Source: Tetraselmis striata
Taxonomy: Eukaryota; Chlorophyta; Chlorodendrophyceae; Chlorodendrales; Chlorodendraceae
Assembly: GCA_006384855.1 (NCBI GenBank)
Contig: VCJN01000180.1
Span: 41,807-105,806, forward strand
DNA: 64,000 bases
Direction of reading: 5' to 3'
In this document: positions 50,524 to 54,320 of the stretch, piece after piece
How positions within the stretch are numbered: the first letter of the stretch is position 1
How the letters are laid out: each line of letters starts with the position of its first letter
Notes under the pieces: generated by a model
Database searches by the model: none
Told to the model about the DNA's origin: nothing
Seen by the model: only the letters and a program-made list of their open reading frames with translations
Program-made: the position numbers and the translations under genes

Positions 50524-53500
50524 CTAGGAATCCATGCAGTCGACACCGCGCTGCATCTCGCTGCGGACATTCATCCATATCTGCCCCATGCGATTGCATC
50601 CAATGATGGTGTCGCCAGTGGTCTTGTCCACCCGGCCAGCCCAGAGGTCGCCCTCCGTTGCTCTGGGAGACAGGTGCAGGATGTGCTGGTCGCCCGTGCC
50701 CAGCAGCGCTTGCTTCACTTCGCAGCTGCGGAGTGCCTTGGCCCGGCAGATGGCCTCCATGACCTCCTGGGAGGCGCCGCCGTTCCAGCACTCGAGCTCC
50801 GCATCCTCCAGGCGCATGCCGCGGCCCCCGCCCCCCGCCTTTGCCGCTGCTGGGGAGTCAAACCCGTCAGCGGCGCCCTCAAGGAAGCGCTCTGCGTACT
50901 GGCACAACTGCTGGTGCCGCTGGCGATCGCCTCGGCGCAGCGACGCTTCCGCCGCAGCTCGGTACTTCTCCCCATGGAACGCGTGCTCCCCAGTCGCGTA
51001 GTCCCGCCCGTGAATGCAGACGCGCACCGCAGCAGAGTTGGACAGAAGCCGCATGCCTGGGTCCTTGCTCTTGGAGAAAAAGGTGGCAAACTGGGACAGC
51101 GCAAGAGGCAACATCAAGACTGCTGGCGAGGCGCGAAGGCCTGCTCGTGTGGTCCACCCGCTGGGTGCGTGTGTGGCCACTGCTGCAGGCTCCTCCCATC
51201 CATTCGTAAGGATGCATCAAAGTACAGAAGCCGTAACTAGTAGCATCTGCTGAAAGCGGACTCAGTCGAAATGACCGCTACTTGCCGTATGGACAGTATC
51301 TTGCAAACGCTGCCGCCTTATGGACGGATATTTAAACGGATATGAAACAAGGGAAAGGGGGGGGCGGGGGGGGGGGGGGGGGGGGGAGGGGTACCTCTCC
51401 GGCAGGCCTAGGCCTGGACTTGGTGGGGGCCGCTGGTGGCGAGCGATCCACCTTCGTTTTCCTCTTTGCCGACTGCGGCGTCACAGCGACCAGCACCGCA
51501 TCCCCATCGCGCTTTTTCTTGGCCCCCGTGACCTTCTTGCCTGGCGTGGCGGCCTTAGCGGCGTTGACGGCCTTAGCGGCCTTGGTCGCCTGGCCCGCCA
51601 GGCCCTTCTTCTCAGCCTTTGGGGGTGTGGGCGGCGGCGGCGGGGGTTGCAGGTGCTCCGGTAGCCTTGCCCGCACGCTGGCTAGCTCACTGATGAACAG
51701 CGCGTTGTGTGCCCTGCAATGCATGGCCAAGCAGCGATAGGGGTGGCGCACTCACGCCTATGTTCCCCCACAAGTCACTGCAAACGGGGGAAGGGGACCC
51801 GGCGGGGGGGGGGGGGGGGGGGGGGGGGGAGGGGGGGGCACGCCATACGCTTGCAGATCCGGCAATTAATCTGGAAGGGAGGAGCTCGGGGTGGGCTCAC
51901 CAGCCACAGTGCTCGCCAAACACCTCCTGAAACGCCTGCTGGACCTCCCCGTGGATCTGTCCCGTGTAACCCATACTTGGTCAGGGCGGAAAAGAGGGCA
52001 ATCATGACAGCAGGTGAATGTAATCCAGTCGCAGACAGCTGGGCGTGGTGGGGCAACAGAGTTTGGGGGACGGGTGAGGGGGAGGGGCGCCGGGGGCGGG
52101 GGGGGGGGGCACCACACCCGTGGTGTCAGCGTCTTGTCCGCCAGGTGCGGACAGTAGTACCGCACAGCCAGCTGCCACACGTGGGTGTCCACTGGAATAG
52201 CCTCCGCCTTGTCCAGGCTGAAAAGTGCGATGCAGGCCGCCACCTGTTTGCACCCAAAGCAGCGGTAAGGCATTCCGCTGCACCATGTTGCCCCCCCCCC
52301 CCCCCCTCCCCCCTCCTCCTAATCCTGCCCCTCTGCCTGGGCCATAAGTGGTTTGCTTGCGCCTATCTGGTAGTTTGCACCTTGGGCCCGACGCCCGGAA
52401 GCGTCTGGAGCTCTGTCAGCGCCTCCTGGTAGCTGGCTTTCCTGAGGGCCTGCGCAGTGCCAGCGGCAGCTTGCGGTCAGATGGCCCGCATGGTCGCATG
52501 CTACAGCCGGTGCTCAACGCGGTCACCACGCCGCCCATCTGGTCATGCAGCATCTGCGCGCGCATCATCTTGTGCGCGCTGCATCTGGTTGTGTGGCGCG
52601 GCATCCCGGAGCATTCCCGCGCAGAGGTGAGGCTGGCACATGCAGCGGTGAGCTTGCTGGGCCACTCACCATCAACCACGCCCTGCCGCCCCCTGGCTTG
52701 GAGCACAGCTCTTGCACTGAGCCCACGATGAATTTGGCGCGGTATCCAAAGCCATTGGCACGCAGCTGCTCCTCCGTGGCTGCAGCCAGCTGCTCCAGCG
52801 ATGGGAACGCGTAGTACTCCATGCTGGCAGGACATTCCCCCTCTGGAACCTGGCCAAGTGCACCGGAAGAGGCTGACGATTCAGCTAACCGTGCCGCCAC
52901 GGATGTTCAGCCAGCCGCAGCGAAGGCCGCCGGCAGAAGCGTACCTCGAAGGGCTCGCCGTACTGCGCTGCCAGCCGCTCCACCATGCTGTGGATCCGGC
53001 TGATGTGGTTGTTGGAGGAGCAGATGAAGGAGAAGAGGCACTCCACCGGGTCCTGGCGAAGCATCCGCGCGCCAAGCACGTATGGGTGGACCTGGCCAGC
53101 CCCCCAGTCCTCCGATCAAATGTTGGCCCTACGTCCACCCAGCATATATACACACCTGGGAAGGGGGGAGGGAAAGAATGCCAGTGGATAAGGGGGCGGG
53201 GGGGGGGGGGGGGGGGCGCACCTCTGCGTATCGCTGGTCCTTGGAAGACCACAGCTTAGACAACTGCGACAAGCACACCGCCTTCTGGAAATAGGTCTCT
53301 AGCGACCGCGCGTCATCATCTGTGTGCCCCAAGCAGCAAGCGTAAGCCGGACAGGGGGTATAGCCCCAGAAGGCGCCGTGTCCTCCCGACTGCCCCCGGG
53401 CAGACGGCTACCCAAATGAGCAGCGGCAGCTCACCGGGGCCCACGCCAGCGCCGCGTGCAAGCACCCGAAACGCCACGTCGTCTGCCGTTTGCTGCAGCG

Positions 53501-53672
53501 CCACCAGTCGCCGGCCCACGACACCCGTGAACTCGAGCGGCTCGCTGCCAGTCTGCCGCCACCGGAAGGACTGCCCCGTCGGGAGCGTGTGCTCCAGCCT
53601 CAGCTCCCGCGCGCTCATCCCCAGCGACCGCCAAGCACCCGCACGCCCTGCTCCCACCGCCATCGCCCGCAT
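50524..53672 (-). CDS. OGG1: 8-oxoguanine DNA glycosylase (OGG1), predicted fusion to a NADAR domain
   Basis: Exons in transcription order: 53672-53435, 53319-53222, 53091-52945, 52849-52670, 52449-52381, 52243-52116, 51975-51901, 51713-51395, and 51090-50524. All have GT-AG edges and keep frame, for about 606 residues. OGG1 part: [13 protein letters not shown], the DNA-binding [32 protein letters not shown] with the catalytic Lys, and IPVDTHVW with the catalytic Asp. The human Gln that reads the lesion (WAQ) is His here (WAHNALF). It then has a Lys-rich, NLS-like tail (KRKTKV). NADAR part: [55 protein letters not shown]1 excises 8-oxoguanine and NADAR enzymes remove ADP-ribose from guanine. 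If the last intron is not used, OGG1 ends at 51332 and NADAR may start at ATG 51114 as a 196-residue protein. Confidence 0.85.
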
Positions 53673-53874: not shown

Positions 53875-54320
53875 ACCCCCCTTGCTCACCCCACTGTGCC
53901 GAAGACCATGCCCGTGTACTCCGTGACATGTATCCAGAAGGGTTCCTTTGTTACATCAAGAGCTTTAATGTAAGTACTCGTGGCAGTACATAATGATACA
54001 GGTGTAAGGATATGTACCACACAAATCCCCATGTGGGTACCCAGTGCCTGGTGCGTTTTGCGCGGTATCCTTACAGTTCGTGCTTCTACGCACGCATTAT
54101 TGGATCCGGGTTCGATCCCGCGGAGAAACATATAATATGATATGATATCCCGCAATGTTGGACGACCCGGCCAATGCGGATCGCCACCGAATCCAAGCCG
54201 AAACGTTGCTGGAGGAGGTCCTCCATCCTATGGGGGGGGGGTGGAGTGTAAGGATATGTACCACACAAATCTCCATGTGGGTACCCAGTGCCTGGTGCGT
54301 TTTGCGCGGTATCCTTACAC
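53875..54320. repeat. LINE end fragment plus 230-bp repeat and two foldbacks
   Basis: 53875-53935 repeats the MVFGTVG-coding end of the LINE at 42.95 kb. 54004-54235 is the inverse of 34604-34830. A 71-bp foldback (GTAAGGATA...TATCCTTAC) is present twice, at 54004-54074 and 54248-54318, and GGTTCGATCC at 54109-54118 matches a pol III B-box. Confidence 0.65.

Follow-up and report, generated by a model that had tools for sequence, protein, structure and literature searches.

The minus strand of the window, by which we mean the whole 64,000-nucleotide stretch of Tetraselmis striata DNA analysed here, carries the exons of an OGG1 glycosylase and, directly downstream, a NADAR reading frame. The question raised by this locus is whether the two are made as a single protein or belong to two neighbouring genes and, if they are one protein, which reaction its NADAR half would carry out.

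Structure of the gene

The locus was modelled as a nine-exon gene running on the minus strand from 53672 to 50524; its spliced frame is open for 599 residues, and 8 of 8 introns have GT-AG borders. Exon 1 (53435..53672) begins with an ATG at 53672 and contains the start of the OGG_N domain (residues 17-131 of the spliced protein), the donor of exon 2 (53222..53319) is followed by a run of C residues, exon 3 (52945..53091) continues the spliced frame, and exon 4 (52670..52849) ends on an ATG codon which is also the first residue of the public protein P0121 described below. The final codon of exon 5 (52381..52449) is that of the catalytic lysine K244, within LPGVGPK, and exon 6 (52118..52243) carries the catalytic aspartate D263. 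Exon 7 (51901..51956) opens at the acceptor GGGACAG/ATCCAC (slashes mark splice junctions), in agreement with P0121 (TLTPR/IHGEV); a start of this exon at 51975 was rejected, as the frame is lost there and is restored by the acceptor chosen. In exon 8 (51395..51713) the OGG1 core ends and a Lys/Pro/Ala-rich linker follows. Together, exons 1-8 (53672-51395) encode 411 residues, a complete OGG1 with OGG_N and HhH-GPD. The eight OGG1 exons with catalytic Lys and Asp listed by the initial annotation were thus recovered, with seven GT-AG introns between them, and so was its NADAR reading frame downstream on the same strand: exon 9 (50524..51090; 567 nt) has no internal stop and encodes the NADAR part (residues 412-599) and the stop codon. 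The two parts are separated by intron 8 (51091..51394), a GT-AG intron of 304 nt.

It had also been remarked that the donor of intron 8 is followed at once by a C-run, as in two other introns of the gene. This is the case in introns 2, 6 and 8, where the run begins 5-8 nt past the donor. C-runs of 12-26 bases were seen in introns 2, 6, 7 and 8 (window positions 53216, 52109, 51829 and 51386, minus strand). When the DNA of the gene was used as a query, the 42 matches obtained beyond the gene itself all fell on stretches of introns 7 and 8.

Upstream of the gene, the window holds two copies (54247-54319 and 54003-54075) of a 73-bp element with inverted ends (TGTAAGGATA...TATCCTTACA). At 100% identity, the second copy matches at least 41 sites in the genome, at least 34 of them over its full length, the window's own included (40 of 804 candidates scored); the element looks like a young, abundant MITE-like repeat.

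A protein record crosses the predicted junction

The junction proposed by the initial annotation, a phase 0 join of donor GAG/GTACCC (last exon base 51395) to acceptor CTGTCCCAG/TTTGCC (first exon base 51090), was reproduced and yields the 599-aa protein. That it is in phase carries little weight. In the stretch scanned, 51 GT/AG pairs leave the fusion frame open, and with the donor held fixed an in-phase open CAG acceptor appeared in 1034 of 2000 dinucleotide-shuffled introns; the in-phase open join was therefore not used as evidence.

The join rises above chance because a public protein contains exactly the predicted junction. The NADAR part alone was searched against ~5.8 billion proteins, and two of the 200 candidates, P0121 and P0122, matched at E <= 0.001. 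P0121 is a 319-aa protein from a JGI contig of 2,246 bp, in a cluster of 5 member sequences, and the predicted fusion is identical to it at 312/312 residues, through joins 4/5, 5/6, 6/7, 7/8 and 8/9, at which the window holds introns of 220, 137, 161, 187 and 304 nt, respectively; intron 8 is accordingly absent from the record. P0121 starts with a Met followed by ALRK, a succession encoded only once exon 4 has been spliced to exon 5. By far the simplest account of these features is that P0121 comes from spliced RNA, rather than from gene prediction on a DNA contig, and we infer such an origin. Coming as it does from another contig, this record supports the union of OGG1 and NADAR that the initial annotation had proposed. 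The statistical strength of the case lies in the domains and in P0121, not in the in-phase open join alone, and the OGG1-NADAR fusion is very probably real.

The two sequences part near the end of P0121. After RAKALR it continues with RHSAAAK and ends (residues 313-319), which corresponds to another frame of the same DNA and is consistent with an 11-nt tandem duplication, as judged from the protein. Either an error of assembly or an allelic variant may account for the frameshift; so truncated, the NADAR domain would lack its third catalytic residue and its last strand and helix.

One gene or two

The main rival to a single gene, which we regard as unlikely, is a conjoined transcript. In this reading, two adjacent genes, one for OGG1 and one for a free-standing NADAR, would mainly yield an OGG1 of 431 aa (stopping at the TAA at 51332) and a NADAR protein of 196 aa (starting at 51114), and P0121 would stem from occasional read-through with the spacer spliced out. 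The gene structure would permit this: when intron 8 is retained, OGG1 stops after 431 residues at the in-frame TAA, 20 residues into the intron, and the ATG at 51114, a possible alternative start that would add 51091..51114 to the coding sequence if NADAR is a separate gene, preserves the NADAR domain. That start, however, leaves 10 residues ahead of TFFSKSK, compared to 50 in P0122. The absence of TGTAA between the two parts, which had been put forward in support of a single gene, was confirmed, but argues at most weakly against two genes and is not diagnostic, since TGTAA is missing from the minus strand throughout 53845 to 49832, that is, also for ~690 nt past the NADAR stop.

Composition bears on the same issue. 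Third-position GC is alike in the two parts (80.3% in OGG1, 80.4% in NADAR). Intron 8 is the longest intron of the gene, the others measuring 95-220 nt, and without its C-run its GC content is 54.5%, nearer to the values of the 300-bp flanks (54.3 and 57.0%) than to those of most of the other seven introns (57.0-67.0%). Such composition and length would be in line with a spacer that once lay between genes, or with two genes that are still separate, and it is because intron 8 resembles intergenic DNA in composition that a conjoined transcript of two genes stays the main rival. The frameshift of P0121 within its NADAR part would also fit a read-through product, as would the unfused state of the nearest relatives described in the next section; against this, the only transcript-like record found for the locus is the fused one.

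Relatives and possible origin of the fusion

Of 7,990 candidates scored in a search for OGG1 relatives, 471 reached E <= 0.001, and 120 of them were listed. Among these listed matches, 0/120 had a NADAR domain according to precomputed Pfam domains, and 0/120 matched the NADAR part or P0122 by phmmer. A search among proteins of fusion length gave the NADAR part in 0 of 2363 candidates, P0121 with its 319 aa being below the length range searched. As none of the 120 listed OGG1 relatives has NADAR, the fusion looks recent. The best OGG1 relative among the matches listed, P0001, is 75% identical over 54% of the query and comes from a 1,438-bp contig; its similarity to the fusion extends into part of the exon 8 linker and is lost around the exon 8/9 border, as if the two were different in the last exon alone, and it may be incomplete. 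The second-best among the matches listed, P0002 from Tetraselmis sp. GSL018, shows 65% identity over 54% of the query. In both of these nearest relatives OGG1 is unfused, and P0122 is a NADAR protein without OGG1. A search for the OGG1 tails of the relatives elsewhere within the window gave nothing significant (best E 1.3).

For a viral or bacterial source of the NADAR part, searches relying on short exact stretches gave no support: the 57 and 13 pattern matches in viral_contigs and the 129 in genome_contigs included no relative by tblastn. Six weak matches to the NADAR part were found in phage records (32-35% identity over 37-38% of the query), and a roseophage protein has Glu where the fusion has His.

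As the origin of the fused gene we propose that, in a single lineage of algae, the terminal exon of OGG1 may have been replaced by, or spliced onto, an adjacent intronless NADAR gene of the His type, with the former spacer turned into intron 8.

The OGG1 part

In the spliced protein, both OGG_N (78.5 bits, 5.8e-22, cut-off 23) and HhH-GPD (42.9 bits, 6.8e-11, cut-off 26.2) score above their Pfam cut-offs, and the catalytic Lys and Asp are present, as in members of the OGG1 family. The structure entry 1ko9, human OGG1, aligns with this part at 7.7e-67, and the alignment identifies K244 as the catalytic Lys and D263 as the catalytic Asp of the HhH-GPD motif. The residues which are catalytic or lesion-contacting in the human enzyme are retained at K244, D263, H265, G33, C248, N139, R144, Y197, R198 and F311; Q315 of human OGG1 is replaced by His in the fusion, and likewise in P0001-P0003. 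No second place with OGG_N was found in the assembly, which has one in 224 Mb and 2,903 contigs. HhH-GPD occurs at four places in the genome, the OGG1-NADAR locus included.

The NADAR part and its candidate substrates

The Pfam NADAR model scores 32.3 bits in the fusion (1.5e-7) and 35.4 bits for the 196-aa frame, against a cut-off of 35.1. Profile comparison by hhalign with YbiA and two roseophage proteins gave a probability of 98% (2.7e-13), and PHROG 1017, a phage family without assigned function, matches this part at 3.4e-12. The active-site Glu and Lys are present as E446 and K453 (E43 and K50 of the oomycete enzyme). The third catalytic position is H550, which stands opposite E125 of YbiA in the hhalign alignment and opposite the His of T4 gp30.3 in a MAFFT alignment, and which fits the set of Glu, Asp or His found at this position in the subfamilies. 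P0122 is 36% identical to the NADAR part by BLASTP and 40% in the alignment, and both proteins keep E43, K50, W110, H147, W158, N174 and G177; as read from the alignments, the Arg that contacts phosphate, R93 in the oomycete enzyme, has no conserved counterpart in the fusion. An AF2 model made from an input of four sequences reached middling confidence (pLDDT 68.9, pTM 0.68; 58.4 pLDDT with two sequences as input), and its helices and strands are compatible with a NADAR fold. In the model, the first strand and exon 9 start at the same residue, and H550 lies within a strand.

According to earlier work, NADARs hydrolyse guanine-ADP-ribose in vitro (PMC11543638, PMC11125620). In the E. coli C7 NADAR the matching Lys is reported there as essential, and an E-to-Q change inactivates the enzyme while E-to-A has a minor effect in vitro (PMC11543638). 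Phage gp30.3 NADARs are described as being of the His type (PMC11125620, PMC11543638), and a phage NADAR was active on guanosine-ADP-ribose in vitro but did not rescue cells from DarT1 (PMC11125620). The role on two guanine adducts suggested by the initial annotation is plausible, but the NADAR part of the fusion is divergent and has His at the third catalytic position.

The NADAR model matches seven places in the genome, the OGG1-NADAR locus included. One of them lies next to a riboflavin gene domain: RibD_C is found at C1691:94610-94810, and 2.3 kb after it, on the same strand, a NADAR with the usual Glu at C1691:97121-97489. In plants, a riboflavin enzyme carries a NADAR. Given this separate riboflavin-type arrangement, the riboflavin role seems to be already filled by the C1691 NADAR. 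This riboflavin-type NADAR exon (L003, G000:C1691:97121-97489) and another on a second contig (L004, C2014:51228-51596) have the same protein sequence, as might be expected if allelic copies are retained in the assembly; for the OGG1-NADAR locus, a single copy was found. Elsewhere, at G000:C2605:242000-242515, a further NADAR-like frame (L007) shares 27% identity with the NADAR of the fusion; Asn occupies its third catalytic position, and its N-terminal extension contains a repeated segment. It is possibly an inactive reader.

These observations bear on a second alternative, in which the NADAR half acts on another substrate: ADP-ribose placed by PARP on repair proteins or DNA ends, or a Fapy-like N-glycoside of ring-opened guanine, which would resemble the intermediate of riboflavin synthesis that NADARs of the YbiA type cleave. 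OGG1 also removes FapyG, which is chemically similar to that intermediate. The best NCBIfam model for the NADAR part is the riboflavin-intermediate N-glycosidase TIGR02464, at 36.1 bits (7.1e-9), far below the cut-off of 73.7. PARP models match at five places in the genome; the model of DarT, the one family of guanine ADP-ribosyltransferases covered, had no match there. We nevertheless hold another substrate to be rather improbable, given the separate riboflavin-type arrangement at C1691 with its usual Glu and the report that all four NADAR types tested hydrolyse guanosine-ADP-ribose (PMC11125620).

It is very unlikely that the domain lacks catalytic activity and acts as a reader of ADP-ribose recruiting OGG1 to PARP-marked damage, for although its third catalytic residue is His, its sequence is divergent and L007 has Asn at that position, the Glu/Lys motif and the His are common to the fusion and P0122 despite 40% residue agreement, and phage NADARs, one of them active in vitro, are described as having His there (PMC11125620).

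Discussion

We consider it probable that one nine-exon gene encodes a single 599-residue OGG1-linker-NADAR protein with the origin proposed above and a role in clearing two guanine lesions. In such a protein, the OGG1 part would supply DNA search, base flipping and the excision of 8-oxoG and FapyG, and would bring NADAR to damaged or guanine-rich DNA, with the basic Pro/Ala/Lys linker as the tether; NADAR would hydrolyse the N-glycosidic bond between ADP-ribose and guanine. One protein could then clear 8-oxoG and FapyG by excision and ADP-ribosyl-guanine by direct reversal. The specific reading of a two-headed enzyme, whose OGG1 half excises oxidised or ring-opened guanine and whose His-type NADAR reverses guanine ADP-ribosylation in the same DNA, is one that we put forward tentatively, as a possibility. 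If this is correct, a green alga would routinely carry ADP-ribosylated guanine in its DNA, as a lesion or mark linked to base excision repair.

Both domains are already known; their union was found nowhere else in our searches. According to the initial annotation, no OGG1-NADAR fusion is known to have been described, and in keeping with this a search of open-licence papers returned no title on one; the word 'glycosylase' is absent from the NADAR papers PMC11125620, PMC11543638 and PMC9503650. A 2024 paper on specificity calls the roles of NADARs across eukaryotes unclear (PMC11125620). A NADAR covalently joined to a base-excision glycosylase would, as genomic evidence, point directly to a eukaryotic NADAR in DNA repair, and the fusion offers a single purifiable protein for assays of the two activities and of any coupling between the two. 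A precedent for a NADAR near DNA repair is provided by the ybiA-like genes of K-12, which the same paper describes as part of a LexA-controlled, damage-induced operon with dinG (PMC11125620).

Compared to known systems, the protein shares with OGG1 the whole OGG_N and HhH-GPD core, the catalytic Lys and Asp and all but one of the other lesion-contacting residues, and adds to these a C-terminal NADAR domain. The DarT1-linked NADAR antitoxin belongs to the same superfamily and has the same Glu and Lys (PMC11543638), but has Asp where the fusion has His, and its DarT partner had no match in the genome. To the NADARs of the YbiA or riboflavin type there is a clear profile likeness; their third catalytic residue is Glu whereas that of the fusion is His, and the partner in the fusion is OGG1 and not a riboflavin domain. 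Plant NADARs, too, are often fused to other domains (PMC11543638). With the His-type NADARs, phage gp30.3 and P0122, the fusion shares the Glu/Lys motif and the His at the last catalytic position, T4 gp30.3 being 20% identical to the NADAR part in the alignment; unlike these free-standing proteins, the NADAR of the fusion has insertions and is attached to a DNA glycosylase.
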